NCBI RefSeq assembly: GCF_007741515.1
Contig: NZ_CP036263.1
Location: 1,116,001 to 1,180,000 of the forward strand
Reading direction: 5' to 3'
DNA: 64,000 nucleotides
DNA from: Adhaeretor mobilis
Lineage (GTDB): Bacteria > Planctomycetota > Planctomycetia > Pirellulales > Lacipirellulaceae
The translations under genes were made by a program, and so were the position numbers. Under the pieces are notes generated by a model that had not been told where the DNA came from, did not search any database, and saw only the letters and a program-made list of their open reading frames with translations. Of this stretch, positions 31,204 to 49,985 are shown one piece after another (position 1 is the first letter of the stretch; each line of letters starts with the position of its first letter).

Positions 31204-32211
31204 CTACGGATCCCGATGCAGCCATTCCTCTTTCAGCGCATTTACCACTTCTGAGTAATCCGGGAACATGAGGTGCCTCGCGATTCGCTCTCTTGACAAC
31301 ATCCACAAGATTTCGCCGGCAACAGCGCTTGGTGCGGAAATGCGGTACATGACAGGTCCGATGTCTTGCAGGACTTTAGCCTGGCTATCGATGGAACGCT
31401 GGAGAATATCAGGTACAGTGCGGAGATCGACATCCGCCAACAGGCTTGCAGGGCCTATTTCAACTCGGCTTAGAGTAAACGTACCATCTTGTGCAAACAT
31501 ATTTCGATTGCCTTCATAGGGTACGCGAACTAGTTCCTCGCTTTGCAGTACGCGACCACTCTTCTCTCGCCTTGAACCTGTAATTCCAGTGCTCAGAGCC
31601 CATACCGACATTCGTTTAGGGGGAGCGCCAGCGGCTAGTGGATTTGCGGCGCCCGAAGCTGCGAAGTATGCGGCTATCCGGGGAGACCGCGACCAGTCAA
31701 GCAGCCGAGTCGGCAAGCCGCTATGCCTCGCAATGGCAAGTAATTTATAGCAATGTGGAAAGGGCCATTTTCGCTCTTTTCCGGCATATTGATGGCTAGC
31801 ATCAATCCCCTCGATTTGCAGGTCTGATTGGAGAATAACTTCGACGTAAGATCTCATTTCGTGGAGGCGTTCAAATGCATCAGCAGTTGAGTCTGGAAGG
31901 ACCATCCCACAGTCATTGGCACACTCCGCAAATCGGAGCAACATTACAATTTCGAGGAGCACTTGATATGCCGCAGAGTTAGTCTTGCCCGATTTCAAGA
32001 AATCTTGCCCCGCACAATGTCTCACCAAGGACTTTGCTTTCGCATCTCGTCGCAGTACGGTTGGTGTCAGTGCGAATGAATCGTCTGAGTGGCCGCGGAA
32101 TATCCAGCCCCCAGGAAGGCTTTCGTAGTTTTTGTGGTGAATGGAAAGTTGCTGCAGAAACTCGTTGGCGGATTCAACTTCTATCTCACAAACTGGTTGG
32201 TACATCGGCAT
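31204..32211 (-). CDS. FRG-domain protein
   Basis: 335-residue protein with the FRG signature near the N-terminus (GGWIFRGHSDDSFALTPTVL) and the second conserved block HSGLPTRLLDWSRSPRIAAY. FRG proteins are small cytoplasmic proteins often found in defence islands; the domain is suspected of nucleotide-related enzymatic activity, but the reaction is not established. The gene looks complete, with start ATG at 32211. It lies in the minus-strand remnant cluster bordering the BREX-like operon. The 276 bp upstream hold no other gene that I can support. Confidence 0.85.
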   Translation of the reverse strand: MPMYQPVCEIEVESANEFLQQLSIHHKNYESLPGGWIFRGHSDDSFALTPTVLRRDAKAKSLVRHCAGQDFLKSGKTNSAAYQVLLEIVMLLRFAECANDCGMVLPDSTADAFERLHEMRSYVEVILQSDLQIEGIDASHQYAGKERKWPFPHCYKLLAIARHSGLPTRLLDWSRSPRIAAYFAASGAANPLAAGAPPKRMSVWALSTGITGSRREKSGRVLQSEELVRVPYEGNRNMFAQDGTFTLSRVEIGPASLLADVDLRTVPDILQRSIDSQAKVLQDIGPVMYRISAPSAVAGEILWMLSRERIARHLMFPDYSEVVNALKEEWLHRDP

Positions 32212-33622: not shown

Positions 33623-36385
33623 ATGGTAGACCTACAACTTCGTGAGGAGTTCAAAGGGAAACGTCTCAAAGGGACTACGGTTGATTTCACCAACCAGTCG
33701 AAGACAGGTGCGTTGCAGCGCGACGCTGCTGATTTTCTGCGAATCACTTATCCATCCCATGATTTGCTGAAGACCATAGAGGCAACTGGGCCGGGCCAAT
33801 CGCGCCCGCTGGCTCTCATCGGTTCGCGAGGTCAGGGTAAGTCGCACTTGATGGCCGCGCTCTACCACTTGTGCAAGAACCCTGAAGTCGGCAGGGAGTG
33901 GCTCGACCAATGGGCCGATGTCCTTAAGAACCCAAAGCTCGCCGAGCTCGGGCTTCGCGAAGACTGTCACGTCATCGCGGAGAGCATGCATTTGCAGCGT
34001 TACCAATATCTTTGGGACGTCATCTTCGAAAACCATCCGAAAGGTGAGGTCTTCCGAGAAATCTGGGAGCGGATGGGCGACAAGAAGACCAATGTTCCCA
34101 GCTACGACCTAATGTACGACATGTTCAAAGAGCAGCCAACGATGCTGATCGTTGACGAATTTCAAACGTGGTACGAAGGTCTCACGAACACGAAACAGTA
34201 TCCCCGTCGTAATTGGGCCTTCATTTTCATTCAGATTCTCTCGGAGATTGCCCAAAAGCACCCTGAGCTACTCGTGCTGGCTGTTTCCGTTCGCGAGGGC
34301 AGTTCTGATGCGTACCAGCAGGTTCGTCGCGTCAATCCTGTCGATGTGGACTTCAAAGGTCCGTATGCGAAGCGCGACCGCCAACGTTTGCTCCTGTATC
34401 GTATTTTTGAAAACCGGATGCAGGCGCATGAAGACGATATCAAACTGATCATCGAAAACCATCTTTCGGAGTACTTCCGACTCGGCAATGTTCCGCAGCA
34501 AGAACAAGAGAAGAAAACTGCCGACTTTGTCGAGTCTTGGCCGTTTGCTCCTCACCTGCTGCAACTGCTCGATGACCAAGTGCTTGTGGCCACCGACGCG
34601 CAAGAGGCTCGCGACCTAATCAAAATTCTGGTTGACCTATTCAAGAACCACGAACCGCAGGACGCCATTATTACTGCCGCCGACTTCTCATTGACCAGTG
34701 AGAAGTCAGCCGTTGGTTCGCTGCTTGACTCCGTGGCGAATCAAGAGCACAAAGACCTCCGCGAGAAAGCTCAGCGGAACCTTGAGGTCGTTTTGGCAGC
34801 TGTGCCCAACGCGAAGAACGCCGTACCGCACGCCGAAGAAATCATCAGCTCGCTGTGGCTGCGTTCACTCAATGTTGAGCAACTGCGCGGCTCCGAGCCA
34901 GAAACACTGCAAATCGATATCACACGAGCCAATAAGATCGACGACAACGCATTCGAAGTCGAACTGGCCAACATCGTCGATAACAGTTTCAACATTCATC
35001 AGGTTGGTGGTCGCCTGATTTTCCGTCAAGAAGAAAATGCACGAGCCAAACTGCTTTCATATGCCAAGAATGACAAGCTGTTCAAGGAAGGCGAACACGC
35101 TGGCCAGGGCCTAGAGCATCTCGCCAAGGAGATACGGGCTGTTCTCGGAGGTGACGAGAGCGTATCAGCCAAGCACCGAATCGTCGTACTCAAGACCATG
35201 TGGAACAACGCCCCATGGTCTGAGTTTGAGGAGAACCAGGGGCCAAAGGCTTGGGATGACAAGCGATTAACCACGGTTGTAATTCCAGAGCTTCCAGAGA
35301 AACATGCTGAGGCTCTCGGGAAATGGTTGAAGGAACACCTGCAGGACAGTCGCAACACGATTCGTTTTCTGCTGCCACAGAAAGGAACAGGGAACGTCTA
35401 CTACGACCGCGACCTTGTGATTCTCGCCCGCGCTGTCTATTTGGCAAACGAGTGGCACAAGAACGACACGAAGGCCGGTTATGCTGAGTTGGCCAGAACG
35501 TTCCGCAAGGATGAATTAATTCCCAAGATCAGGAGTCGATTTGATCGGCTCTGCGTTCTAAGTGAGTGGAATTATGCAGAACCGGCCAAATGCATCTTCG
35601 AAGAAAGCAAAATCGACAAACAGGGAGACAAGATTCCCGAAGAGATCGACCGCATCGTTCGAGAAGAGATGTTCATTCCCGAGGAGTTCGAAGAGTACGT
35701 TGCGATGTTCGCCTCGGACAACGAATCAGTCGGCAAGCTCTTAAAGGACCTCCGTGAACCGAGACCCCATGGCAAGCCTTGCATTCCTTGGCTCGGCGAG
35801 ACCGAGCTCAAGGAACGCGTCGAGAAGCTCTGCGCCGATGGAGTGATTGCTCTGAACATTCGCGGCACTCGGCTGATGCAGGCGAAACCTGGCGAAGACT
35901 TCGAGACAGCTTGGCGCCGGATGAAAGGCCAGTTGCCCACGGGAACCCATCTCAATGACACTACTATTCAGAAGCCGGACAGCTCCGCCGCCAGCGGCGG
36001 CAAGCCGATTGTGACTGAAACCGGCGGTGCTACGGGCACTCCCGAGCCGGGAACTGACCCAATATCGGGAGGCTTGTTTGGCGGAGGTACACCAGACGCA
36101 ACTGGTACGGGTGAACCGCAACCGGGGACTGACCCAACAGGCAGTGGGACAGCGGGCGTAGGTACCGGCACGGCCGTACCAACCACGTCACATTCTGCTC
36201 CCGCCACGTCTGCACTGAATTTACTTGGCCAAATCGAAGACTGGGGCATCAACCCGGGAACACCTGTTACCAACGTAAGGGTATCTGTTGGTCAAATGAC
36301 CGGTGCACAGCTGCAGAAGCTTATCAAAGACTTACCCGATGGAGTCACTTACAGTCTGGAACTTGAGAAAGAGGCGGATAACTAA
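33623..36385 (+). CDS. DUF499-type P-loop ATPase (BrxC/PglY-like)
   Basis: 920-residue ATPase. Walker A is GSRGQGKS at residues 67-74 and Walker B is LIVDEF at 175-180, followed by a sensor-like LLVLAVSVREG. The long helical remainder ends in a Gly/Pro/Thr-rich linker (about 780-850) and a short C-terminal domain (VRVSVGQMTGAQLQKLI). The organisation fits DUF499/COG1483 ATPases that accompany PglZ and methylases in phage-defence clusters, analogous to BrxC/PglY. Its stop overlaps the PglZ start (TAATG), implying coupled translation and a shared complex. The family call is from motifs and context. Confidence 0.85.
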   Translation: MVDLQLREEFKGKRLKGTTVDFTNQSKTGALQRDAADFLRITYPSHDLLKTIEATGPGQSRPLALIGSRGQGKSHLMAALYHLCKNPEVGREWLDQWADVLKNPKLAELGLREDCHVIAESMHLQRYQYLWDVIFENHPKGEVFREIWERMGDKKTNVPSYDLMYDMFKEQPTMLIVDEFQTWYEGLTNTKQYPRRNWAFIFIQILSEIAQKHPELLVLAVSVREGSSDAYQQVRRVNPVDVDFKGPYAKRDRQRLLLYRIFENRMQAHEDDIKLIIENHLSEYFRLGNVPQQEQEKKTADFVESWPFAPHLLQLLDDQVLVATDAQEARDLIKILVDLFKNHEPQDAIITAADFSLTSEKSAVGSLLDSVANQEHKDLREKAQRNLEVVLAAVPNAKNAVPHAEEIISSLWLRSLNVEQLRGSEPETLQIDITRANKIDDNAFEVELANIVDNSFNIHQVGGRLIFRQEENARAKLLSYAKNDKLFKEGEHAGQGLEHLAKEIRAVLGGDESVSAKHRIVVLKTMWNNAPWSEFEENQGPKAWDDKRLTTVVIPELPEKHAEALGKWLKEHLQDSRNTIRFLLPQKGTGNVYYDRDLVILARAVYLANEWHKNDTKAGYAELARTFRKDELIPKIRSRFDRLCVLSEWNYAEPAKCIFEESKIDKQGDKIPEEIDRIVREEMFIPEEFEEYVAMFASDNESVGKLLKDLREPRPHGKPCIPWLGETELKERVEKLCADGVIALNIRGTRLMQAKPGEDFETAWRRMKGQLPTGTHLNDTTIQKPDSSAASGGKPIVTETGGATGTPEPGTDPISGGLFGGGTPDATGTGEPQPGTDPTGSGTAGVGTGTAVPTTSHSAPATSALNLLGQIEDWGINPGTPVTNVRVSVGQMTGAQLQKLIKDLPDGVTYSLELEKEADN

Positions 36386-37416
36386 TGTCTCTTGCATCAG
36401 CGCCATTATCGAGGGGACTACTCGACACGATTACCAGCGGCTCACCCCAGCAAGCTTGGGATGCGATTGGTCAGTCGTTATGGGAGACATTCTCGGCACC
36501 TATAAGTGCGGCCAGCAAGCAAACCGCCACGTCCGAGATTGTTAACCGCGATGCGAATATCAACGAACTTGAGAATGTAGTGTCTGGCTCCTGCTGGGAT
36601 TTGTGGCAACACTTCGGCGACTGCGTTCCACGTACCAGTCAGTCGCTTATCGAATTCTGGGGCCGTGTTGGTGGTGGCAAAGCGGTCCTCATTTTGGACG
36701 GGTTGTCGCTGCGTGAATCTCCTTGGCTGCTCGGCGCGCTAAAAGAGCGGGGTTACACAATTCACAAAGCGGGCTATCGAGCATCCGAGCTTCCCTGCGA
36801 AACAACTCCTTTTGCCCGTTCGCTTGGGTTCCAGCAGAGAGCCGACTTGGAGAACAATGGAGCGAGCAAGACGCACAGTCTGACCGGAGCTGCCACAGAA
36901 TCCACCGGGCTCCCTTGGGAAGATTGTGTGGCCAGCGTCAAATCGCAGGAGCACTTTGTTTATTGGCATCATTGGCCAGACAGCCGCATTCACGAACTGG
37001 CCAAGCCTGGTGAAGGGCTGAGAAAATTAGCTGCCGAGGCCCAGTCCCGGCTATCAGAAGATGCTTTTTGGGAATTCGTTGAGCGGCTTGCTCATGGTCG
37101 CCGCTTGGTGATAACTGCCGACCACGGCTTCGCCGCTTGTGGAAATTTTCCTGACCTGGGCAAAGAACAATCGAATTACATGAAAGCCCTATTCAAGAGT
37201 GGCCGCACAGCGGTGGTTCCACCGTCGACGGAGCCGACGGAACCCGCTGCATGGATGCCGCCAATCGACTTAGAGCTGGAAACGGAACACGGCAAGCATC
37301 GCTTTGCATTGGGCAGGCGTAAATGGAAAGTCTCTGGCGAAAAGAATCGCTTGCTCGCACACGGCGGGCTCTCGCTGCTGGAGGTGTTTGTTCCTTTTTT
37401 CGAATTGTCAACGTAA
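36385..37416 (+). CDS. Short PglZ-domain protein
   Basis: 343-residue protein recognisable as PglZ (alkaline-phosphatase-like fold): VLILDGLSLRE with Asp105, LVITADHGF at 242-249, and the C-terminal LLAHGGLSLLEVFVPF block at 323-338. BREX PglZ proteins are usually about 600-900 residues, so this is close to a bare catalytic domain with a ~90-residue N-terminal extension. PglZ is required in BREX and Pgl phage defence; its substrate is not settled. The ATG overlaps the ATPase stop. It is followed 27 bp later by the methyltransferase. Confidence 0.85.
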   Translation: MSLASAPLSRGLLDTITSGSPQQAWDAIGQSLWETFSAPISAASKQTATSEIVNRDANINELENVVSGSCWDLWQHFGDCVPRTSQSLIEFWGRVGGGKAVLILDGLSLRESPWLLGALKERGYTIHKAGYRASELPCETTPFARSLGFQQRADLENNGASKTHSLTGAATESTGLPWEDCVASVKSQEHFVYWHHWPDSRIHELAKPGEGLRKLAAEAQSRLSEDAFWEFVERLAHGRRLVITADHGFAACGNFPDLGKEQSNYMKALFKSGRTAVVPPSTEPTEPAAWMPPIDLELETEHGKHRFALGRRKWKVSGEKNRLLAHGGLSLLEVFVPFFELST

Positions 37417-37443: not shown

Positions 37444-40400
37444 GTGGCGAGAATTAAGAAGAAGACGAAGGCACAGTTGCTACAAGAAGCGATCGCGGAA
37501 TCCGTACGCGCAGGAGAAGCAGTGCAACTCGACACGGTCGACTTCTCTGACCCTGATCGCCCGTCAACCTGTCTCGAAGTAGATTTTCCGATCCTCCCCG
37601 TGAATCGTGTTGCCGCCATTGAAGGCAACGCTGGTAAGCCGGTTTATCAAATGTCAAAATGGTGGGCCCGACGACGTTCGAGCGTATTCCGCGCGTTACT
37701 TCTTGCGGCAGCCACGAGAGCACCAGATGATCCTTTGGAAGCCGCCAATAAGATCTGGGAAGCCTATTATGGTAACCATCAATCCAATGAACGCTTCCGC
37801 CAGCTCACCGTCGCTGATGTCTTCATGGGTGGTGGAACTACAATCGTTGAGGGTGCTCGCCTCGGAATGCGGATGCTTGGAAACGACCTGAATCCGGTCG
37901 CTTGGCTAATCGTCAAGAACGAGCTGTCGCAAGTTGCATCTGAAGACGTACAAACACTGCTCGATGACATTCGTGCAGAAGTTCGGCCGCAGCTTATTCC
38001 CTTTTATGCTTGTGATTGTCCACGCGGCCACAAAGGCCAATGGACACATTCAGACGGCGAGATAATGCCGCCATCTTTTGACCCACTATCCGTACCACCG
38101 GAGGATAGGTCTCAATACGATTATAACGGTCCGGAAATCATCTACACATTCTGGTGTAAGCATGGCCCATGCACAGCTACAGAATGCGACCATCGCACAC
38201 CGATCATGACTAGTCCCGTGATTGCAGTAAAGGAAATATCCGCAAAAGCGTGGGCACAATGGTCTTGCTCAGAGTGTCAACAGCTATTTGACATAGAGCA
38301 GAAGCAAGTCCGAATGGCCCCAGCGTCGCCATTGATAGTCGCGGAGGATGAGGCTCCCTTTGCCACGATGGACGAAATGGGCAACTACACTTGTCCGCAT
38401 TGTGGCGTAGCGTTTCAGGATGAGGCGGCGGCTGCGACGGGCGAGTCTATCACATTGAAGAAAGCAAAGAACAAGAAGGTCAGTTTGACCTTGCTAGTAC
38501 ACCCATCGTGGTTGCGTGGAGCGTCAGCGCAAGATGCCGTCGGGCCGTATGGCGGTCGTGCGATCGATGGTGCAGAGGCGACATCTCGTTGGAATCACGC
38601 TCGCTCTAAGACACTATCATTCATCGAAGTTCGAGGTAAGCTGCCAGACGAAATCACAACGCCCGATACAAATGAGACTGTTGCAACGGGAAAGAAGGGA
38701 GGAACTATACCTGGAAAGTCAGCCTTTACATGTCAGGAAGCAACATGCGGATTGGACCAGGACATTCTTACTGCTATTCGCCAAACTGAAACCACGGGCC
38801 CACTTGCAGCCTACGCGGTACAGGGGTACTGCTCAGCCTGCAACGAAGACAAACAGCCCTATGGTGGTCGCTTCTTTGCAGAACCTAAAGCTGACACTAT
38901 CAATGCCGCATTTGCGGAATGGCAAAGCCGAGGCAAAGAAGAGCTAGATGCATGGTGGCCGAAGACCGAATTGCCATTCGGATTTATGACACACCAGAAC
39001 AACGGAGGAATTCCAAATCACGGTTTCACGCATTGGTGGACGATGTTTAATCCACGCCAGCTACTTGCTCAGTCACAGCTCCTTCGGGCAATCACGACGG
39101 TAGGCGAACACGATTGGACAGTGCGAGAATTCTTGCTCGGTGGTTTTCAACAAACTCTTCGTAATAACAACCTCTTCTGCATCTGGAATCCGCAACGTGA
39201 TACTCCGGAACCGATGTTTTCGAACAGCAACTATCACCCGAAGGCCACAATGGTCGAGAACTGCGTTTTCGCAAATCTCGGTCGTGGAAATTGGCAGTCG
39301 TCGAGTGAGAATACACTGGAAGGCTTGGGATGGTGCGATGATCCATGGGAACTTGTTTCTAAAGCGGGTTTGGCGACGACGGCACCAGAAATTGCAGAGT
39401 CAATTGGTGGCAAGAGTGCTAAGACATTTCCAAACGACCCCGTTACCGAAGGACATGTATTATCATGCCGTTCATCAAGTGACTTAAACGAACAAGGAGA
39501 CGAAACGGTTGACTTGGTAATTACTGATCCACCTTTTGGTGGCCTCCTTCATTATTCGGAGTTGTCAGATTTTTTTCACGTATGGCTGCGGATTCCATTG
39601 CAAGAACGCTTTCCCGACTACTTCTCAGCCGAGTACACGCCTAAAGCTCTGGAGGCGGTAGCCAATCGCGCAAGAAATCCAGAGGACCCAGACGGCTTTT
39701 ATCAGCAATTGCTGACGGAGTGCTGGCGAGAATCGGCTCGAATCCTGAAACCATCTGGCATTCTCGCTTTCACCTTCCACCACAGTGAAGATGAACCTTG
39801 GGTCGCCGTTCTCGAAAGCCTATTTAATGCTGGATTCTATTTAGAAGCTACCTACCCAATTCGCAGCGATGAGACTAAGGGCGAAGGTGGAAAGCCGGGG
39901 ACTTTTGGTTCACAACTAATTGAGTATGACATAATTCACGTCTGTCGAAAAAGAACCGAAGAACCAGAGCCAATCAGTTGGGCTCGACTACGTCGTACTA
40001 TCATGCGTGATGTTCGTGAATTACAGGACATTCTCGAACAACATCATGGGGATGGTCTAGGTGAGGCTGATTTACTGGTCATTCGAAGGGGGAAGGCGCT
40101 TGAATATTTCTCGCGGCACTATGGTAAGGTCTATGTTGAACGAGGTCGTGAAGACGAATTCTCGGTGCGAGATGCGCTTCTCGGTATCAATCAGCTGCTT
40201 GACGACACTGACGAAGACTCAGGTGACACCACACCTGTGACAGCCGAACTCTACACCCGACAGTTCCTCCGCTTGTTTACGGATAAGTCAGAGCTTTCAC
40301 GCGACCAAATACAGAAGTTCCTTCGTGGAACGGGCGTATCGAGAGGCTGGTTCATAGATCGCGGCTGGTGTTACGAAGAAAAGAAGGTGCTCTTTCTAAA

Positions 40401-40716
40401 GCCGCCATTGGAATGGGCTCGCGAATGGAAGGGAAAACATCGAAGCAACATGTCTCGCGACTTCGACCAGGCCTATTTCTTGATTGGGGCTAGTTACGAA
40501 GAGAGCGGTATCCGCCTCAGCGATACACTCCAGAGCGGCAGCTTTATACCGCATCCAGCCATTAGCGATCTACTCGATTGGTTCGCTCGCCACGGGTACG
40601 ACCAAGACGTGAAAGATGCGGCATCCCGGGCGCGCCAGATCTACAGACGATGGGAAGCAGAGCACGTCGCGGAGGTATCCTCGCAAAAAACCTTATTCGA
40701 TATGGATGAGGAGTAA
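37444..40716 (+). CDS. DUF1156/COG1743-type Zn-ribbon DNA methyltransferase (PglXI-like)
   Basis: 1090-residue DNA methyltransferase, GTG start at 37444. The DUF1156-type N-terminus reads LEVDFPILPVNRVAAIEGNA, then KPVYQMSKWWARRRSSVFRA. SAM-binding motif I is DVFMGGGTT near 125-133. The catalytic motif IV DPPF is at 695-698, typical of adenine or cytosine N-methylation; adenine is usual in this family. Between them are several cysteine pairs (CSECQQ, CPHCG, CSACN) that fit zinc ribbons. It presumably marks host DNA for the defence system. It is followed directly (3 bp) by the small unknown gene. Confidence 0.9.
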   Translation: MARIKKKTKAQLLQEAIAESVRAGEAVQLDTVDFSDPDRPSTCLEVDFPILPVNRVAAIEGNAGKPVYQMSKWWARRRSSVFRALLLAAATRAPDDPLEAANKIWEAYYGNHQSNERFRQLTVADVFMGGGTTIVEGARLGMRMLGNDLNPVAWLIVKNELSQVASEDVQTLLDDIRAEVRPQLIPFYACDCPRGHKGQWTHSDGEIMPPSFDPLSVPPEDRSQYDYNGPEIIYTFWCKHGPCTATECDHRTPIMTSPVIAVKEISAKAWAQWSCSECQQLFDIEQKQVRMAPASPLIVAEDEAPFATMDEMGNYTCPHCGVAFQDEAAAATGESITLKKAKNKKVSLTLLVHPSWLRGASAQDAVGPYGGRAIDGAEATSRWNHARSKTLSFIEVRGKLPDEITTPDTNETVATGKKGGTIPGKSAFTCQEATCGLDQDILTAIRQTETTGPLAAYAVQGYCSACNEDKQPYGGRFFAEPKADTINAAFAEWQSRGKEELDAWWPKTELPFGFMTHQNNGGIPNHGFTHWWTMFNPRQLLAQSQLLRAITTVGEHDWTVREFLLGGFQQTLRNNNLFCIWNPQRDTPEPMFSNSNYHPKATMVENCVFANLGRGNWQSSSENTLEGLGWCDDPWELVSKAGLATTAPEIAESIGGKSAKTFPNDPVTEGHVLSCRSSSDLNEQGDETVDLVITDPPFGGLLHYSELSDFFHVWLRIPLQERFPDYFSAEYTPKALEAVANRARNPEDPDGFYQQLLTECWRESARILKPSGILAFTFHHSEDEPWVAVLESLFNAGFYLEATYPIRSDETKGEGGKPGTFGSQLIEYDIIHVCRKRTEEPEPISWARLRRTIMRDVRELQDILEQHHGDGLGEADLLVIRRGKALEYFSRHYGKVYVERGREDEFSVRDALLGINQLLDDTDEDSGDTTPVTAELYTRQFLRLFTDKSELSRDQIQKFLRGTGVSRGWFIDRGWCYEEKKVLFLKPPLEWAREWKGKHRSNMSRDFDQAYFLIGASYEESGIRLSDTLQSGSFIPHPAISDLLDWFARHGYDQDVKDAASRARQIYRRWEAEHVAEVSSQKTLFDMDEE

Positions 40717-40719
40717 CTG

Positions 40720-41235
40720 ATGGACAAACCACTCATCAATGATGACCTCTGGAAGCGTCGCGGCATTAGCATTCTCTGGGATGCGGATTCGCTCAATAGT
40801 CTTTGCCGTTCAGACGAAGTCATCAGTCTGCGACATTTTCGCCAACTGTTCAACGACCGGTGGTCAGATGTGGATGCCTCAATGGTTGACGAAGAGACGC
40901 TGGTCGTTGCCGGTTTGGAGAGTTGTATTGATGCCTTGCCTCCCGAAGAAGCCACCAAGTGGCTGCAGGACGTGTTCTACAAGGCTATGGTCTCATACCA
41001 GGGCGAAGTAGCCGACGGTGGCACTCAAGCTGCTCTCATCTTGTGGTTTGTCGATTCACGGCGGCTGAAATATAGAACCAGCGATGATGGATGGAGCATG
41101 CATTGCGCCGGTGAATTCAAGGGCCAGCAAATCCCACTCGGACGTTGCCTCTTCAACGGCGCCGCAAAGGACCTCAAGGAAATCCAGGACGCCGACGGAA
41201 ACAGTCTCGGACTCTATCACCCTCGAATCTCATAA
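40720..41235 (+). CDS. Small unknown protein of the BREX-like operon
   Basis: 171 residues (MDKPLINDDLWKRRGISILW ... ETLVVAGLESCIDALP ... TQAALILWFVDSRR ... GQQIPLGRCLFNGAAKDLKE ... LGLYHPRIS). It reads as a genuine compact alpha/beta protein, with two predicted core strands (LVVAGLE and AALILWFV), but there is no Walker A motif. It occupies a conserved-looking slot between methyltransferase and helicase. It could be an adaptor analogous to the small Brx proteins (for example BrxF or BrxA); I cannot establish homology. Start ATG 40720 is 3 bp after the methyltransferase stop. Confidence 0.7.
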   Translation: MDKPLINDDLWKRRGISILWDADSLNSLCRSDEVISLRHFRQLFNDRWSDVDASMVDEETLVVAGLESCIDALPPEEATKWLQDVFYKAMVSYQGEVADGGTQAALILWFVDSRRLKYRTSDDGWSMHCAGEFKGQQIPLGRCLFNGAAKDLKEIQDADGNSLGLYHPRIS

Positions 41236-41272: not shown

Positions 41273-44032
41273 ATGAGCGAAACGCCACTCCAGCCTGGAC
41301 AACGAGTACGCCACGCTCAATACGGTGAAGGTGCGGTGCTCGTTGCCGGTACGGATGGATTTGCTCGTGTGTTGTTTTCTGGTGATGCGGGTGAACGCCA
41401 GGTGCCGTCCGCCTCGTTGTCAGCAGCACTTAGTCGTGCTGAGCTTGTCGTGCAGAACGTTGCCTCGGGCCAGCAACGCAACCTCCGAGCGTGGTTGGCT
41501 TATCAAGCTCATGCGCTCCCCCTAATTGACAGTGCGGCAGCTCTGACATCAGCTCGAATTGATCTGCTGCCGCATCAAGTTGTCCTGACCCATCGCGTAG
41601 CCACTGCTTCTCCTCGCCGCTATCTGATTGCGGATGAGGTAGGGCTAGGTAAGACCATTGAGACGGCTTTGGTACTTCGTGAACTCGCCAGTCGTGGAGA
41701 ATTGAATCGCGCGTTGATGGTGGTGCCCGCTGGTTTGGTGAATAACTGGCATCATGAGCTGAACGAAGTCTTCAATCTGGATTTTGAGGTCTTCGGTTCG
41801 CAGGGTGACGTCACCGACCGGAAGTCCAATGCGTTTGCCAAACACGATCGGCTTATTGCCAGCGTCGATACGCTCAAAATGAAACCGCGTTTGAGGAGAC
41901 TCAAAGACGCACCTACTTGGGATTTGGTGGTTTTTGACGAAGCCCATCACTTGAGTGCCTACCGCAACGGCACCAAGGTCCGTCGCACCGAAAGCTTCAA
42001 ATTGGCCGAAGTACTGCGAGACCATTGCCGTGACTTGCTCTTGCTGTCGGCCACGCCTCACCAAGGCGATCACTTTCGGTTTTACATGCTGGTCCAGCTG
42101 CTAGAGCCGACGCTGTTTACGAGCCCCGCCGACATGATCGACAACCGGCATCGGTTGAATTCGGTCATTTTCAGACGCACAAAAGCGGATGCCTGCCGTC
42201 CCGACGGCTCGACACTGTTTGCTCGGCGGTGGGTGCATACCGAGTCGTTTGTGATGTCGGACGACGAGCGGGATTTCTACAACGAACTGAACGTCTACCT
42301 GATGGACGGCTTTGCCCTGGCGAAGAAACAAGGCAACAAAGGCCGAGCCTTGGGATTCGTGATGACGATATTCCAGAAAATCGCCGCCAGTAGTTTTGCG
42401 GCTGTGCATCGTACGCTTCGCCGCCGCCTGATTGCGTTGACGGTCCAAGAAGGCTTGATGCACGACAACAATTTGGACATCGAGGCTCGGGATGCGTCGT
42501 ACTCGGAAGCTCGCGAGCTGATGCGGAACGAATATGGCTTGCCTGACGACCAAATGGGTCGAGTTGAAGCCGAGCGTCTGGTTGCCGACATGAAACGGCG
42601 GCTACTCAAGGACATGAAAGACGAAGACTTGGCTGTCTTGTCGAGTGAGTACTCTCAAGAGACCGCCACCACTTCGAGTGAAGACTCGGTCGCGACAGCC
42701 GTCAAGCTGGCGCTACCCGAAGAGCGAAACCGCATTCGAGACCTACTTCAAAAGTTTCCCAAGCAAACGGAGACTAAGGTACAGAACCTGATGCAGGCGC
42801 TCGGTACTCTTTGGAAACAGAATCCCCAAGAACGAGTCGTTATTTTTGCGACGTACTTGGGTAGTGTTGAAATGCTGGGAGAACAGATTGACCAAGCCTA
42901 CCCTGGCCAAGGTGTTGTGGTACTAAAGGGTGGCGACCACGGTACCAAGGCAGCTGCGGAGAAGCGGTTCAAGCAACCGGAAGGCCCTCGAGTGATGATC
43001 TGCACAGCAGCAGGTCGCGAAGGTATCAACCTGCAACACGCCCGGATCCTCTTCAACTTCGACTTGCCGTGGAATCCGATGGACCTCGAACAGCGGATTG
43101 GGCGCATTCATCGCTATGGTCAAAAAGATACAGCCCAAGTCTATAACCTCGTGCTCTCCGACACGATCGAAGGCCGTATCTTCTTGTTGCTCGACGACAA
43201 GCTGAAGGAAATCGCCAAGACACTGGGTAAAGTCGATGAGCACGGCGAAGTCGCTGAAGACCTTCGTAGCCAAATTCTTGGCCAACTCTCCGAGCGACTC
43301 AGCTATGAGCAACTCTACGCCCAAGCCATTTCTGACCCGAAACTAAAACGGACCAAGGTCGAACTCGAAGCCGCGCTGTCGAACGCTCAAGAAGCTCGTA
43401 CAGCCGTCCATGAACTCTTTCAAGACCTCGATGGGTTTTCGCTCGACGACTACGAACCGCTAGCGGATACAAGCAAGGGAATGAATGATATCGTCGCATT
43501 TGTGAAGGCAGCAGCGCAACAAGAGGGTCGAGATTTGCGAATGGAGCCCAATGATTTGGTGACCTTGTCGGCCGCTAACGGAGACTCGGAGAAACAATTC
43601 ACAACGGACCGCGAACAATCATTAGATTCCGATACGCTTGAGCTTCTGGGTCTCGATCATCCACAAGTTGTTCGCTACATCGAGGAGTTTCGTGAGCTCG
43701 ACCCGGTACAGCTCGGTATCCGAGTCGCTAGCGCTGACGGACAAAGCGGCGTCTTGTCTCTCTGGCACGTCACGACCCACGGTGACCGTGGCGAAACAAA
43801 GAACTTGATCGTTCCGTTGGGAATCGACACAGAAGGGGCTCGCGTTCCCGTGTGGGAAAAGCAAGTCAATCAGCTTTTCCGCTTACCGCCCGCGAGCGGC
43901 TCTGCCAGTCCCCTCAAAATCGCCACGGATGTTTTCGAGCCGATGATTCAGCGCGAGTTGTCGCACCGCGGCGTACTGGGCAAGGACCGAGGGTACGATT
44001 CGCGATTAGTTGGCTGGGTGGAAGTTATTTAG
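41273..44032 (+). CDS. SNF2-family helicase (BrxHII/DrmD-like)
   Basis: About 919 residues from the ATG at 41273; the upstream frame extension has no coding character. A short N-terminal beta domain (PGQRVRHAQYGEGAVLVAG) resembles a chromatin-reader-like SH3 barrel. The SNF2 ATPase has DEVGLGKTIETAL (motif I) near 119-131, FDEAHHLSAY (motif II) near 221-230, and motif VI QRIGRIHRYGQ near 607. A C-terminal extension of about 200 residues is unassigned. SNF2-type translocases are components of several BREX and DISARM types. It is the largest motor of this operon. Confidence 0.9.
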   Translation: MSETPLQPGQRVRHAQYGEGAVLVAGTDGFARVLFSGDAGERQVPSASLSAALSRAELVVQNVASGQQRNLRAWLAYQAHALPLIDSAAALTSARIDLLPHQVVLTHRVATASPRRYLIADEVGLGKTIETALVLRELASRGELNRALMVVPAGLVNNWHHELNEVFNLDFEVFGSQGDVTDRKSNAFAKHDRLIASVDTLKMKPRLRRLKDAPTWDLVVFDEAHHLSAYRNGTKVRRTESFKLAEVLRDHCRDLLLLSATPHQGDHFRFYMLVQLLEPTLFTSPADMIDNRHRLNSVIFRRTKADACRPDGSTLFARRWVHTESFVMSDDERDFYNELNVYLMDGFALAKKQGNKGRALGFVMTIFQKIAASSFAAVHRTLRRRLIALTVQEGLMHDNNLDIEARDASYSEARELMRNEYGLPDDQMGRVEAERLVADMKRRLLKDMKDEDLAVLSSEYSQETATTSSEDSVATAVKLALPEERNRIRDLLQKFPKQTETKVQNLMQALGTLWKQNPQERVVIFATYLGSVEMLGEQIDQAYPGQGVVVLKGGDHGTKAAAEKRFKQPEGPRVMICTAAGREGINLQHARILFNFDLPWNPMDLEQRIGRIHRYGQKDTAQVYNLVLSDTIEGRIFLLLDDKLKEIAKTLGKVDEHGEVAEDLRSQILGQLSERLSYEQLYAQAISDPKLKRTKVELEAALSNAQEARTAVHELFQDLDGFSLDDYEPLADTSKGMNDIVAFVKAAAQQEGRDLRMEPNDLVTLSAANGDSEKQFTTDREQSLDSDTLELLGLDHPQVVRYIEEFRELDPVQLGIRVASADGQSGVLSLWHVTTHGDRGETKNLIVPLGIDTEGARVPVWEKQVNQLFRLPPASGSASPLKIATDVFEPMIQRELSHRGVLGKDRGYDSRLVGWVEVI

Positions 44033-44045
44033 GGATGAATCGACG

Positions 44046-45212
44046 ATGACACTAATTGACCTATGGAACAGTGACCGAACCCAAGTTACAAGCAAACGAT
44101 TAGAGCAACTAATTGCGTTTGCTGGTGAAGGGAAGCTTCGGGATGGCAACGAAACCACCGCCGAACTGAGAGCGTTGCTGGCCGTTGTACCTAGCGACAT
44201 TCTTGGTGAATGGATTGAAGAGTGCCTGACATCACGATTCTCCGATTTCGGTTTCGTCGTGCAGGACATAGTAAACGAGATTGGTCACCGGCTGAATTTT
44301 GTTGTCCGTCCGGGTGTGTATCGAGGTCATAGTAACGAAGGGTACGATGGCCTGTGGCAGATTCCCAATGGACAATCAATTCTAGTAGAATCGAAGTGCT
44401 CTACAGCCTACTCGATCAATCTCGCCCGAATTGCTGACTACCGAAAGCAGATTGCTCCTGACCTAGCTGTCGAACCAGAAAGCATCTCCATCTTGCTGGT
44501 CGTAGGTGATGAAAGTACCGAAGACCTCGAAGCCCAAGTTCGCGGTTCACGGTTCGCTTGGGACATCCGTCTTCTCGGCATGCGCGCTCTGTTCCGTCTT
44601 TTGCAGCTAAGGGAGTCGCTAGACGACCCCGCTGTCGAGCGGCAAATTCAGAACTTGCTAATCCCCAAAGAATTTACACGTCTCGATAGTATTGTTGATC
44701 TGGTGTTCTCTACCGCTGAGGACGCACAGGACAATACCGAGGAACCGGAAGTCGAGCACTCAGAGCCCCGAACGAAGGATACTCCTGCTGCAAACTTCCA
44801 CGGCGAGATTCTTCCTAGGCTGGAAAGACGATTTGGCAAGTCGTTGGTAAAGCGATCTCGCGTTGTCTGGGGATCGCCTGACGATTCCGTCTTGGTCTCC
44901 TGCCAAGTGTCGCGAGAATATGATTCTGGAGGCTACTGGTTTGGTCTTAAGCGTACGACAAAAGAATCTCTCGAAAAACACGGCAATGCTCATTGCGCAT
45001 TTGGTCTTAACTCGCCCGATAAAGTGCTACTAATCCCATATAACGACCTCGCGAAGCAGCTCGATAACTGCCACACGTCGCCAGATAGGGACGGGAGCAT
45101 CCGCCATTGGCACATCCGGCTCGAAACAAATGAGGCTGGAGAAATTTCGATGTTGTCTAGAGGCGACCATGCCCACCTCCCCGTCAGTGAATTCCTGCTC
45201 GATCGTACTTAG
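44046..45212 (+). CDS. PD-(D/E)XK nuclease-domain protein
   Basis: 388 residues from the ATG at 44046, 13 bp after the helicase stop. The first ~200 residues hold a restriction-endonuclease-like core: Asp101 in GYDGLWQIPNG, then Glu115-Ser-Lys117 in ILVESKCS, the D-X13-EXK pattern, followed by helices with RIADYRKQI. A linker of acidic residues (about 230-250) separates a C-terminal domain of unknown fold (LERRFGKSLVKRSRVVWGSP). Cleavage activity is inferred from the motif only. It could be the effector of the defence operon. Confidence 0.8.
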   Translation: MTLIDLWNSDRTQVTSKRLEQLIAFAGEGKLRDGNETTAELRALLAVVPSDILGEWIEECLTSRFSDFGFVVQDIVNEIGHRLNFVVRPGVYRGHSNEGYDGLWQIPNGQSILVESKCSTAYSINLARIADYRKQIAPDLAVEPESISILLVVGDESTEDLEAQVRGSRFAWDIRLLGMRALFRLLQLRESLDDPAVERQIQNLLIPKEFTRLDSIVDLVFSTAEDAQDNTEEPEVEHSEPRTKDTPAANFHGEILPRLERRFGKSLVKRSRVVWGSPDDSVLVSCQVSREYDSGGYWFGLKRTTKESLEKHGNAHCAFGLNSPDKVLLIPYNDLAKQLDNCHTSPDRDGSIRHWHIRLETNEAGEISMLSRGDHAHLPVSEFLLDRT

Positions 45213-45227
45213 AACCCTTGAAAGACT

Positions 45228-46823
45228 GTGACAACATTTTTCAGCGAGAATCTGGTTTCAAGAGAGTTTGTGGAGCGGCTTCAGGGCGACCTGCGCGAGT
45301 GCCTGATGTGCCGATTCCTCGTTGCCTATGTTTCGAATGCCGGAATTTGCACCATCGGCCGGCCGTTGCTTGTCGATGCCATGAGCAAGACCGGTTCATT
45401 TGGAATTAGCTCTCTCAGCTGTAGTTGCGGTTTTGACCCGCTGCTTGATTTGCAGGGCGCCATTGGTTCCAGTCGCGCCAAGCTCAAGTACTTCATGGAC
45501 CCAATAGTCCGCACGAGGCGCGAACCTAGGCTTGTCTTGCTGCATTCCAAGCTCATCTATCTTGCGATTCCGTCACAAGGGAAATCGGTCGTCTACATCG
45601 GTTCTCACAACTGGACAGGCTCTGCACTGTCTGACGATGGCACGGTCAACGCAGAAGCATCATTGAGAATCGAAGTCCCCTATGACACCGAACATGCGTA
45701 TGGCCGAGGTGACTCTATTGCCGGACAAGTCAATCGGCACTTGCTTGAAGCCAAGGATCTCCCCGCGTGCCGTGACGCTGTTGAGTCGAATCGCCAGCTA
45801 TTCGAGCAGTGGTACGACAAAGGTTGTCGAACTAACCCATCGCCGAGCACTGATGATGCGTTCATCCTCCTTGCGGTTCTCAAAGATGCCGAACCGATCT
45901 CCCCGTCTATTTTCGATGAGCTGGTTGATAAAGGCATCTACTTGCGAACCGACAACACCGGCAAACGAATGTATCTCGCTGAGCACCGGCGGTTGATTAT
46001 CATGCTCTGGCTCTCGGAATCGGATTTGCAGAATGGCCAACAGCCTATTCTTATACGCTGTCGGCGTTCGACCGATGCACCCGACGTATCCGCTGACGTG
46101 AAGTCTACGAATACCTCTCCGTCTCCCATCGAGGGATTCGGAGCCGCTATTTTTGGCAGTAAGAAGCTAACACTGTGGTCCGGGCGTGAAGCGCAAGCCT
46201 TCGACTTTGCATTCCAGTCGGGTCCCACCAGTTCACAATCGTTTGACACAACTCTGGGCGGCCGAGCGCCCAAGTACCGGTTCCATCTGGAAGTGATGAA
46301 TGTGGTCTTTCCTGCTTTTGGCATGGATGAGCTTTTTTCTTCGCAATCGGCCAGTTCGGAACAGGCTCGCGCTGAACCTCAAGGAGATGAACAGAAGTCG
46401 GCCAAGCCTCCCTGCTGGTACCCGGATTCATTTGCTGTGGCGAACAAACGCAAAGACTTCGCCTTTATCGGCATCAATGGGTATCTGGTCGGAGAAGAAG
46501 ATGAACAAAGCATCGCGAAATGTTTCAAGGATGTTTTCAGTATCACTGAGAACGATGCGACCGTGTGGCCGACTTCGAAGACGGCAGAAGAACCGCTTGG
46601 CAATTTCGTGTCGAGCCACCCACTCCACGAAACCTATTTGCATGGCATCGAGCATCAGTCTCTCGCCACGAAAGTCAAAGACTTTGCAAAAGCGTTGATA
46701 CCACAGCTCCCTAAGGAGGCGTCGGAAGAGGACGGTGACAAACGCACACTCCAAGCGATCACGCGTGTTCAGCACGGTGTCGTACGACAGCTTGATGAAT
46801 TGTTTGGCCAGTGGCACGAATGA
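45228..46823 (+). CDS. PLD-superfamily protein of the defence operon
   Basis: 531 residues, GTG start at 45228, 15 bp after the nuclease gene. One HKD-type motif is visible: HSKLIYL at 106-112, then YIGSHNWTGSAL and NAEASLRIEV. This is the phospholipase D/nuclease signature, with a single copy suggesting a homodimer. The remaining ~350 residues show no known domain. PLD proteins occur in DISARM (DrmC) and other anti-phage clusters; this one is much longer than DrmC. It is the last gene of the operon; the next ~490 bp contain only decayed sequence. Confidence 0.8.
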   Translation: MTTFFSENLVSREFVERLQGDLRECLMCRFLVAYVSNAGICTIGRPLLVDAMSKTGSFGISSLSCSCGFDPLLDLQGAIGSSRAKLKYFMDPIVRTRREPRLVLLHSKLIYLAIPSQGKSVVYIGSHNWTGSALSDDGTVNAEASLRIEVPYDTEHAYGRGDSIAGQVNRHLLEAKDLPACRDAVESNRQLFEQWYDKGCRTNPSPSTDDAFILLAVLKDAEPISPSIFDELVDKGIYLRTDNTGKRMYLAEHRRLIIMLWLSESDLQNGQQPILIRCRRSTDAPDVSADVKSTNTSPSPIEGFGAAIFGSKKLTLWSGREAQAFDFAFQSGPTSSQSFDTTLGGRAPKYRFHLEVMNVVFPAFGMDELFSSQSASSEQARAEPQGDEQKSAKPPCWYPDSFAVANKRKDFAFIGINGYLVGEEDEQSIAKCFKDVFSITENDATVWPTSKTAEEPLGNFVSSHPLHETYLHGIEHQSLATKVKDFAKALIPQLPKEASEEDGDKRTLQAITRVQHGVVRQLDELFGQWHE

Positions 46824-47816: not shown

Positions 47817-49062
47817 CAGGGCGATTCAAAGTTTCATGATACCCAGCTTGGCGAATAGCTTATCGACTCGGTAAGCGTTTTCTCTGATAGCACCGATGAG
47901 GCTGGGGACTTTGGCTAAACGGAGCAGATTGATAGCCGCATTGCGGAAGCAGGCTAAGTTTTGGCTTCCACGGTGATGACGGACCCCACAACGGTCTTCT
48001 TGCCAGAGGACATCACGAACCCAGTGCAAACGGTTTTCAATGCCCCAATGGCTACGCCAGATCTCAAGCAGCTTCTCCGCATCGGCACGCTGCGGAGAGA
48101 GACTGGTGATGGCATACTGGACCTCGGTGATCGTCTCGTTGTTGCGACGACTCGTACGCTCTAAGCGAATCACCTGCCGAAGTCCGGGCCAGCGAGAGAG
48201 GTGCGGAACGATCCGCGTGCTGGCCTGAAGATGCCGCGTGATAACGCGACCATGCTCTTTGGTGTGCGTCCGGACCTCGGTTTGGAACGCCTCTTTTTTA
48301 TGCTGACTGGCGGGGGGAAAAGGCCGGTAAGAAATCACCGGCGATGTCTTCTTCTAAGTTTCCCTGATTGCCTTTTACGACAATCAGGAAGTCACCGCCC
48401 GAATCGGTAATGGTCCTACAAATCTCGGTCTGTGCGAACATCGCGTCTCCGGTCACCACACGTCCTTCCAAGACAAGCGTCTGGAGAATTTCGGGGGCGG
48501 TCTTAATCTCGTTCGTCTTTCCCGAGACAGGCATTTGGCTGAGTACGCAGCCGGTCTGCTGATCAAACAGGCTCAAGAGATGGACCGACTTGCCGTACCG
48601 ATCCAGGGTCTTACAAAGCGTCTTTCCATCAATGGCTAGGCAGGCCATTGCTTGGGGGTCGACTTCTGCGTGAGGAGTGATCCAAGCACGCAAGGCTTGT
48701 TCGAGTTGCTCCGGGTCCATCATGTTCAGTAAGTAACGAAACGCGCCTTCTTTGGGCGGCGTGCGAAAGTACCCCAGCAGATACCAAACGCTCTTCTCTT
48801 GAGCGTGAATCCACTGGGCAATGGCTTCATAGCCTCGCGCACCGCACAATACGGCACAGGCAACGGTGGCCAGCATGGCCTGCAATGAGTGGCGCCTTCC
48901 TTTAGCCCCACGCGGGTCGGGAATCTGCTGCAAGTGAGCTAGCAGACTCTCCGCGTGAGCGGCATTCACAGTAAAACCTCCTGAAATTAAGGACGAAACG
49001 TTAGTTGCTCTAAAACACGTACGCAACCTGATCTGCACAGGTTCATTCTTTGCGTAGTCCTG
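47817..49062 (-). mobile_element. ISAs1-family-like insertion sequence with TSD
   Basis: About 1.25 kb element with imperfect terminal inverted repeats: CAGGGCGATTCAAAG at 47817-47831 and CTTTGCGTAGTCCTG at 49048-49062, whose reverse complement shares CAGG, C and CAAAG positions. TATACCCCCT flanks both ends (47807-47816 and 49063-49072), a 10-bp target duplication. This shows the whole element inserted as a unit. One transposase gene on the minus strand fills it. Confidence 0.85.
47826..48969 (-). pseudogene. ISAs1-family transposase, split by a frameshift
   Basis: The gene begins at GTG 48969 behind a strong AGGAGG ribosome site (VNAAHAESLLAHLQQIPDPR). The N-terminal part shows LAIDGKTLCKTLDRYGKS and VVTGDAMFAQTEICRTI, containing two catalytic Asp positions of the DDE domain. 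The first frame ends near 48298, while a second overlapping frame runs to 47826 (LEIWRSHWGIENRLHWVRDV, with the catalytic Glu region). The switch falls in a TTTTCCCCCC run near 48310-48325. ISAs1 transposases normally use one frame, so this is either an inactivating indel or slippage-mediated frameshifting. Confidence 0.85.
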
Positions 49063-49163
49063 TATACCCCCTCGTTTTATTTGAAGTTCTTCAATTTTCG
49101 TGGTAAATTGCCATCCAATTTGAACTACCTGATAAACGATCAATTCAACTGGAAAAAGTACTA

Positions 49164-49985
49164 ATGCAAAGCAAAACCAAGGGTCGTGGACTACTAAAGT
49201 TCTGCTTGTTCGCTGGACTTGTGGGAATTCAACAGCGATCAGCACATGCGATTACATTTGAATACACTGATTTTTCAGACACATCCGCGCTGATAATAAA
49301 TCGTGACGCTAGTCCGGTGACAACACCTGCTGGAGTGGTGATGCGGCTAACTCCAGCACTCGGAATTCAGTCAGGTAGTATTTATCGAAACGAGGAGGCG
49401 AGTGTTTTCAAGTTCAGCACGGCTTTTAGCTTTCAAATTGCTAACGACTCTAACCCAGGAGCCGACGGACTTGCCTTCGTGTTGCAACCCGGTGGTACTC
49501 TTGCTGGCAATTCTGGAGGCAGCTTGGGGAATGCTGTTCCAAATACCGTCGCGGTAGAGTTCGACACTTGGAACAACCCCGAGAACAACGATCCAAACAA
49601 TAATCATATTGGTATCACACTTTTTGGAATGGAAGATCATGGAGCGGGCTCCCCTTTCACAGTCACAGCTCCCAGCGATCTGAATGATGGACTCGTAAAA
49701 TATGCTTGGATCGACTATGACGGAACGAATTTGGAAGTCCGGTTCTCTGACCTTGCGGCGAGACCTGAATTGTCGATTCTTACGCAAGCAATCGATATCT
49801 CAACTGTACTCAAGGGATCTTTCAGAGCATTCGCCGGTTTAAGCGCTGGAACGGGCGGCGCTTCTCAGAATCATGATATCTTGAGTTGGTCTTTTGAGGG
49901 CATTCCCGAACCAAGTTCTTTGTTCCTGATCATGACAGCGACACTCGCTGCTTTGGCGCACCGCACTCGCTATACAACCAGGTAG
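49164..49985 (+). CDS. L-type lectin-domain PEP-CTERM protein
   Basis: 273 residues: signal peptide (FCLFAGLVGIQQRSAHA), then a legume-lectin-like domain with ANDSNPGADGLAFVLQPGG, VAVEFDTWNNPENNDPNNNH (metal/carbohydrate loop) and WIDYDGTNLEVRFS. A C-terminal sorting segment IPEPSSLFLIMTATLAALAH with basic RTR follows. It is likely a surface-anchored carbohydrate-binding protein. No dockerin is present, unlike the proteins at 9-19 kb. It sits about 100 bp downstream of the IS end and may have received new upstream sequence from that insertion. Confidence 0.85.
   Translation: MQSKTKGRGLLKFCLFAGLVGIQQRSAHAITFEYTDFSDTSALIINRDASPVTTPAGVVMRLTPALGIQSGSIYRNEEASVFKFSTAFSFQIANDSNPGADGLAFVLQPGGTLAGNSGGSLGNAVPNTVAVEFDTWNNPENNDPNNNHIGITLFGMEDHGAGSPFTVTAPSDLNDGLVKYAWIDYDGTNLEVRFSDLAARPELSILTQAIDISTVLKGSFRAFAGLSAGTGGASQNHDILSWSFEGIPEPSSLFLIMTATLAALAHRTRYTTR

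Follow-up and report, generated by a model that had tools for sequence, protein, structure and literature searches.

The window, the 64,000-nucleotide stretch of Adhaeretor mobilis DNA analysed here, carries on its forward strand an operon that encodes, in this order, a DUF499 AAA+ ATPase, a short standalone PglZ protein, a DUF1156 DNA adenine methyltransferase, a small protein and a Snf2/BrxH-like helicase (Table 1). Both Walker motifs of the DUF499 protein are intact (Walker A, GSRGQGKS, at residue 67 and LIVDE at residue 175), and the PglZ motifs DGLSLRE, TADHG and HGGLSLLE are likewise present and intact. Residues D105, S108, R110, E111, D246, H247 and H326 of the PglZ motifs, which we take to be putative metal-site residues, are among the columns invariant in 9/9 sequences. 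The methyltransferase carries a DPPF motif at residue 695 and scores 21.6 bits against DUF1156 in hmmscan (cut-off 24) and 26.7 bits in a six-frame scan. The helicase retains its GLGKT and DEAH motifs.

Table 1. Genes and features of the operon and its surroundings, in window coordinates
Feature	Position	Strand	Length	Remarks
FRG-domain protein	31204-32211	-		Resembles PADLOC candidate PDC-S15; lies ahead of the operon
DUF499 AAA+ ATPase	33623-36385	+	920 aa	BrxC-like motor; PF04465 (DUF499), 37 bits, cut-off 23
Short standalone PglZ	36385-37416	+	343 aa	PADLOC PglZ, E 3.3e-4
DUF1156 DNA adenine methyltransferase	37444-40716	+	1090 aa	NF042963, 104 bits (cut-off 1000); HmaB, E 4e-34
Small protein	40720-41235	+	171 aa	ATG start; probable Type-3 BR iSTAND-type adaptor
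C-terminal GLYHPRIS	41209-41232	+	residues 164-171	Arg169 at 41224-41226; proposed trans arginine finger
Snf2/BrxH-like helicase	41273-44032	+		BrxHI, E 4.5e-95; HmaA; DrmD (scanned from 41084)
Protein after the helicase	44010-45212	+	at most 400 aa	No family; in-frame ATG at 44046
PLD/HKD-like protein	45228-46823	+	531 aa	HSKLIYL; PLDc_2, E 0.004 (below cut-off); weak ZacB, E 6e-4
DDE-type transposase	47826-49245	-		Split over two overlapping ORFs; directly downstream of the operon

The small gene starts 3 bp past the TAA of the methyltransferase gene, with GAGGAG directly upstream, and ends 37 bp before the in-frame ATG of the helicase. These spacings had been given in the initial annotation and are borne out by the ORF coordinates. 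An alternative, longer helicase ORF is listed from 41084 and overlaps the small gene. Compared with its counterpart at a related locus (L028; 67% identical protein), the small gene shows 45, 28 and 100 differences at codon positions 1, 2 and 3, respectively, and another codon is used at 62 of the 114 identical residues. The third-position bias is common to four homologue pairs with 54-67% protein identity. By these codon-level comparisons the small gene is a real gene under coding constraint, to a degree far beyond chance; a chance ORF or a wrong start is ruled out by the ORF and ATG check together with the codon-position bias.

Distribution of the small gene and relation to Type-3 BR

When used alone as a query, the small protein had a match in 5 of 97 related genomes, its own genome counted, and no match among genome contigs. 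Across 294 genomes of the phylum, a PglZ query found 9 genomes, and a profile built from an alignment of 70 small-protein sequences (A3) found 7, all among the 9 with PglZ; in one of them (G378) the small gene and PglZ lie on different contigs. A six-frame scan detected DUF1156 in 54 of the 294 genomes, including all 7 with the small gene and 47 without it. Since the small gene occurs in 7 of 9 PglZ genomes and in 7 of 54 DUF1156 genomes, it tracks the PglZ subtype and not DUF1156 generally. The co-occurrence with DUF1156 methyltransferases that the initial annotation proposed as a check therefore holds within the PglZ-bearing subtype and fails in general (7/54). The two PglZ genomes with no A3 match, G262 and G166, have a much diverged PglZ, and the G166 contig ends inside the methyltransferase. 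At the equivalent place in the diverged system of G262 lies a 142-aa gene (locus L024, 8396-8821, minus strand), whose product is without the C-terminal arginine described below and whose genome is unmatched by the A3 profile. This gene may represent a second adaptor lineage.

To survey genome contigs, we used a PglZ alignment as the query, so that retrieval was independent of the small gene, and took the best 80 of 215 loci, that is, the closest PglZ relatives only. According to their record titles, these loci span Planctomycetes, Verrucomicrobia, Proteobacteria, Acidobacteria, Firmicutes and others. The small-protein profile matches 69 of the 80. Among the 68 of these loci in which the methyltransferase and the helicase were both recognised, 67 carry the small gene; at the exception (L036), the methyltransferase is in pieces (240 and 325 aa), the helicase has 590 aa and DUF499 was not recognised. 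Gene order is strongly maintained, with no same-strand gene of at least 150 aa between the methyltransferase and the small gene in 64/67 loci, or between the small gene and the helicase in 62/67. Other same-strand families are less frequent in the 68 loci, the most common being an 80-aa gene (20 loci), followed by a 356-aa gene (9 loci).

In the available text of Rakesh & Krishnan (2026, PMC12839542), Type-3 BR systems are described from 569 taxa as comprising DUF499, a methyltransferase, a helicase and a standalone PglZ; 466 of the 569 (82%) also have an iSTAND as a gene of its own. The iSTAND is presented there as a BrxB/BrxF-like inactive STAND, and the accessible part of the paper by Kaiser and colleagues (2026, PMC13326643) calls the Type-3 BR gene a BrxB homolog. 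The window operon agrees with the Type-3 BR described in the former text in both composition and order, and the small gene resembles the iSTAND in being a separate small gene, in lacking Walker A and in evolving rapidly. In both the window helicase and the Type-3 BR helicase, as far as the latter is described in that text, no nuclease was detected; for the window helicase this refers to its Pfam matches. At the helicase N terminus, the site of the Type-3 BR TUDOR domain, the Pfam scan, which affords no fold-level view, gave no match. The published frequency of the iSTAND (82% of taxa in the text available) compares with 67/68 loci in our survey, which covers the closest PglZ relatives.

Because no other suitably sized gene is conserved in the surveyed loci, the small gene would by elimination correspond to the published iSTAND gene. 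We consider it probable that the small gene encodes the fifth core component of Type-3 BR, most likely its iSTAND, with a P-loop fold that has lost its Walker motifs. The small gene is an ordinary but unannotated core gene of an already described system. Conserved widely in an anti-phage system that has only recently been described, it offers a useful annotation and not a new kind of system. The initial annotation had offered two possibilities, a Brx-type adaptor that has diverged or a component not seen before, and came close. The protein does belong to a BREX-related system, and its best reading is a BrxB/BrxF-type inactive STAND; the novelty probably does not stand, given the iSTAND reported in 466 of 569 taxa in the text of PMC12839542 at hand.

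Sequence families, conserved residues and predicted fold

In hmmscan searches, the small protein matched no family in Pfam or PADLOC and gave one chance match in NCBIfam (E 0.15), in agreement with the earlier remark that it has no recognisable motif. The 70 relatives gave no credible match in the same three collections, with scattered single-member matches at E 0.03-0.4, and a PDB sequence search with the A3 alignment returned one chance match (E 0.44). With respect to the known small subunits, the models for BrxF (NF033453), BrxB (PF08747) and DUF3780 (PF12635) had no match in the 70 relatives (E up to 0.5). The BrxF and BrxB models had none in the genome of the window either; the DUF3780 genome scan matched nowhere at all and is hence uninformative. 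The clear match to BrxF that the initial annotation named as speaking against its proposal was thus looked for and is absent at the sequence level, and identity with BrxF, BrxB or DUF3780 by family model is ruled out at that level for the 70 relatives. Profile-profile comparison of the small protein with BrxF and BrxB gave no signal, but the positive control, BrxF against BrxB, also failed, so that the method is without power here; when secondary structure was included in the comparison with BrxF, reversed decoys outscored the real pair.

The invariant residues across the 70 small proteins include W11, G15, W20, R38, W48, D71, W109, R115 and R169. Gly164 and Arg169, both within the C-terminal GLYHPRIS, are invariant in 70/70 sequences of the A3 alignment, and 74 of 75 distinct sequences retain the C-terminal arginine. 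The C-terminus that had looked conserved from a single sequence is therefore conserved indeed. A full Walker A motif (G....GK[ST]) was found in 0/75 distinct sequences, and VVAGL is the commonest reading at the Walker B strand.

An AlphaFold2 model based on the 70 sequences (pLDDT 93.2, pTM 0.88) predicts strands at residues 15-19, 60-64, 105-109, 116-119, 124-128, 153-156 and 162-167, two-residue strands at 35-36 and 137-138, and helices at 22-28, 37-45, 51-54, 66-72, 75-97, 140-145 and 148-151. The two hydrophobic core strands proposed from the letters correspond to 60-64 and 105-109, and the predicted alpha/beta protein goes well beyond them. In order, the model has a strand, a helix, a short strand, two helices, a strand, two helices, a strand, three short strands and a last strand; this order is read from the strand and helix list, and strand directions and the antiparallel nature of the three short strands lie outside it. 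The iSTAND of PMC12839542 has, in the text available, a five-strand alpha/beta core, a helical insert after strand 2 and a three-strand antiparallel cap after strand 4. The predicted order resembles that description, except for an additional helix-helix-strand segment (140-156) before the last strand.

Foldseek searches with the model returned no match at E <= 0.001 in the PDB or BFVD (best E 0.51 and 0.095, respectively), and the top lists held both P-loop proteins and viral polymerases, the latter as short partial matches. The best VIA-align match was weak (Z 4.8, 128 residues, 4.4 A), and the 50 rows listed aligned 96-137 residues. We take 49 of these 50 rows to be RecA/Rad51/KaiC/AAA-type proteins or Shu-complex subunits; the remaining one is unnamed (2ekd). 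The top-ranking matches are of the RecA-like kind, not of the AAA+ kind. BrxB (9zll_E), although in the VIA-align library, is not among the matches listed, an absence that excludes nothing. Taken together, the model and these weak matches (Z <= 4.8) make a degenerate P-loop fold likely for the small protein but do not establish the fold of BrxB.

Among known proteins, BrxB of Type I BREX shares with the small protein the company of PglZ, an AAA+ ATPase and a methyltransferase in its system, as well as a C-terminus with aromatic and arginine residues (NYYRAFRL in the PDB chains, compared with GLYHPRIS). The available text of PMC12839542 describes BrxB as an inactive P-loop fold. The BrxB chains in the PDB (9zll and 9nv3) have 192 and 199 aa, exceeding the small protein by about 20-28 residues. 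BrxF of Type III BREX is similar in size. Its AlphaFold2 model, built from two sequences (pLDDT 81.7 for the best of five and 53.2 for the worst), has BrxB 9zll_E as its top VIA-align row (Z 10.9). It suggests a strand and helix order like that of the small protein, with three short strands after strand 4. In contrast to the small protein, BrxF keeps a Walker A motif (GKT in 6/6) and an LLDN-type strand; its model has an N-terminal helix that the small-protein model does not, whereas the latter has, ahead of its last strand, the extra helix-helix-strand segment. DUF3780 of Type-2 BR is likewise a small accessory gene in a DUF499/DUF1156 system. PMC12839542, in its available part, describes DUF3780 as an antiparallel four-strand sheet with five helices; judged against that description, the small-protein model differs in that its predicted strands and helices alternate.

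A possible adaptor role and its alternatives

Work on Type I BREX offers a possible mechanism. In the accessible part of PMC12205998, BrxB and PglZ form a stable complex, and the nuclease activity of PglZ in vitro is unchanged by BrxB binding. According to the available text of PMC13326643, BrxB bridges BrxC and PglZ in a crystal structure, with an arginine reaching into the BrxC ATP pocket; bound BrxB would preclude further BrxC at that position, and BrxB raises the ATPase activity of the N-terminal part of BrxC. The same text reports that Type I BREX needs BrxB for methylation as well as restriction, that the R82E mutant of Acinetobacter BrxB loses restriction and keeps 84.6% methylation, and that two BrxC mutants of E. 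fergusonii lacked methylation yet still had full or partial restriction. The differing behavior of the E. fergusonii mutants indicates that even Type I systems vary.

By analogy with BrxB, the best reading of the small protein is an adaptor that links the DUF499 ATPase to PglZ. One of its faces would sit on PglZ and the other on the ATP site of the DUF499 AAA+ domain, where Arg169 would be supplied in trans to the ATP pocket. In this position the small protein would cap the DUF499 motor assembly and tie the PglZ nuclease to the complex of ATPase and methyltransferase, and such tethering could limit restriction to unmethylated DNA. Arg169 is a candidate trans arginine because BrxB, too, ends in an arginine-bearing stretch, and it may act as a trans arginine finger. 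The correspondence is tentative, since the published R182 of Acinetobacter BrxB fits 9nv3_A, where it is an arginine, but not 9zll_E, which has no arginine there and whose C-terminal arginines are 186 and 189. Arg169 provides a one-residue test of whether the BrxB-type logic of ATPase, adaptor and nuclease holds in the simpler DUF499 systems. The interest of the protein lies in a testable C-terminal arginine and a still unproven relation to BrxB.

We also compared the divergence of the five core proteins in the 47 loci that encode all of them at full length. The small protein has the lowest mean pairwise identity (0.516), followed by PglZ (0.608), the methyltransferase (0.648), DUF499 (0.654) and the helicase (0.714), and all five co-diverge, with rank correlations of 0.80-0.92. 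Partial correlations of the small protein are 0.47 with the methyltransferase and 0.30 with the helicase (0.38 for each in 33 non-redundant loci), and 0.02-0.04 with DUF499 or PglZ. The values for the adjacent genes may reflect linkage, and they do not favour a bridge between DUF499 and PglZ.

The rapid divergence is what an arms race would produce, and it would suit a small protein that acts as a sensor, using its degenerate P-loop fold to recognise phage nucleic acid or nucleotides directly and to trigger PglZ, a reading that Rakesh & Krishnan propose for the iSTAND in the available text of PMC12839542. Fast divergence alone cannot tell a sensor from an adaptor, however, and the invariant residues in the 70 sequences suggest a fixed internal interface. 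Moreover, as far as the accessible texts go, binding of BrxB to BrxC and PglZ was measured (PMC13326643, PMC12205998), whereas sensing is a proposal (PMC12839542). We regard a sensor as unlikely.

Similarly doubtful is the idea that the small protein is a degenerate RecA-like protein, unrelated to BrxB and BrxF, that was recruited independently to the same position in a PglZ/ATPase machine. The VIA-align rows, dominated by what we take to be RecA/Rad51/KaiC types and Shu-complex proteins, point in this direction, as does the lack of a sequence bridge to BrxB or BrxF. Against it stands the secondary-structure order, in which the three short strands after strand 4 resemble BrxF and the iSTAND as published. 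A related conjecture, to which we give an equally low chance, is that the small protein would be a trans-acting plug of DUF499, its Arg169 finger ending motor assembly and the protein docking PglZ, on a RecA-like scaffold not demonstrably homologous to BrxB. If this were true, BREX-type machines would have gained an inactive-ATPase adaptor more than once.

The least probable alternative, and a very unlikely one, is a protein that gives the DUF1156 enzyme its specificity or helps it to fold, and is needed to protect host DNA rather than to restrict: the partial correlation with the methyltransferase is the highest or equal to that with the helicase, the two genes are adjacent as described, and BrxB is needed for methylation too in the available text of PMC13326643, but the helicase, the other neighbour, is linked by the same statistic, so that gene linkage may explain the correlation, 47 of the 54 DUF1156 genomes are without the small gene, and the R82E mutant, in that same text, largely keeps methylation while losing restriction.

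Accessory genes and mobile copies

Downstream of the helicase, the genes for the protein of at most 400 aa, which contains an ESK triplet (VESKCST) and has no PDB sequence match, and for the PLD/HKD-like protein form a pair (44010-46823) that may constitute an added nuclease module. Neither has a match in the 80 related loci, and their membership in the system is unsupported there; many of these loci stop a short way past the helicase, and of the 68 with methyltransferase and helicase, 32 hold at least 2900 bases beyond it. Within the same limits, no conserved standalone nuclease was found beside the core. The FRG-domain gene similar to PDC-S15, upstream of the operon, suggests a defence island, and a split transposase gene lies directly downstream of the operon.

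Accessory modules occur at junctions of the core operon at other loci, namely AAA and subtilase genes (L054), an AAA gene (L076), SIR2 and HerA (L078), AAA_21 and DUF4276 (L062), and a Schlafen AlbA_2 gene (L082); L064, L077 and L104 have genes similar to those of module-bearing loci by size alone. A gene of at least 200 aa lies between PglZ and the methyltransferase in 17 of 66 loci. The 80-aa family of the 68 loci is exemplified by a plus-strand gene at L039 (2853-3095), and on a Klebsiella plasmid DUF499 is preceded by a gene of similar size that is annotated as helix-turn-helix.

The small protein is also encoded on three viral-collection contigs (L131, L132 and L133), indicating either that the system travels on mobile DNA or that host DNA was binned there; a BrxB scan of viral sequences found nothing. 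By tblastn, the small protein was present in 37 plasmid records, 28 of them from Klebsiella, and among the matches listed for these records the product label was "hypothetical protein" in 30/30 rows. A profile from the 70 small-protein sequences would help annotators to spot Type-3 BR systems, those of Klebsiella plasmids among them. On one such plasmid (L171; NZ_CP114377.1, 2092-15303), two IS26 copies flank a complete Type-3 BR system, in which a SIR2 and HerA-type ATPase pair is inserted between PglZ and the methyltransferase, and PglZ and the small gene are both annotated as "hypothetical protein".
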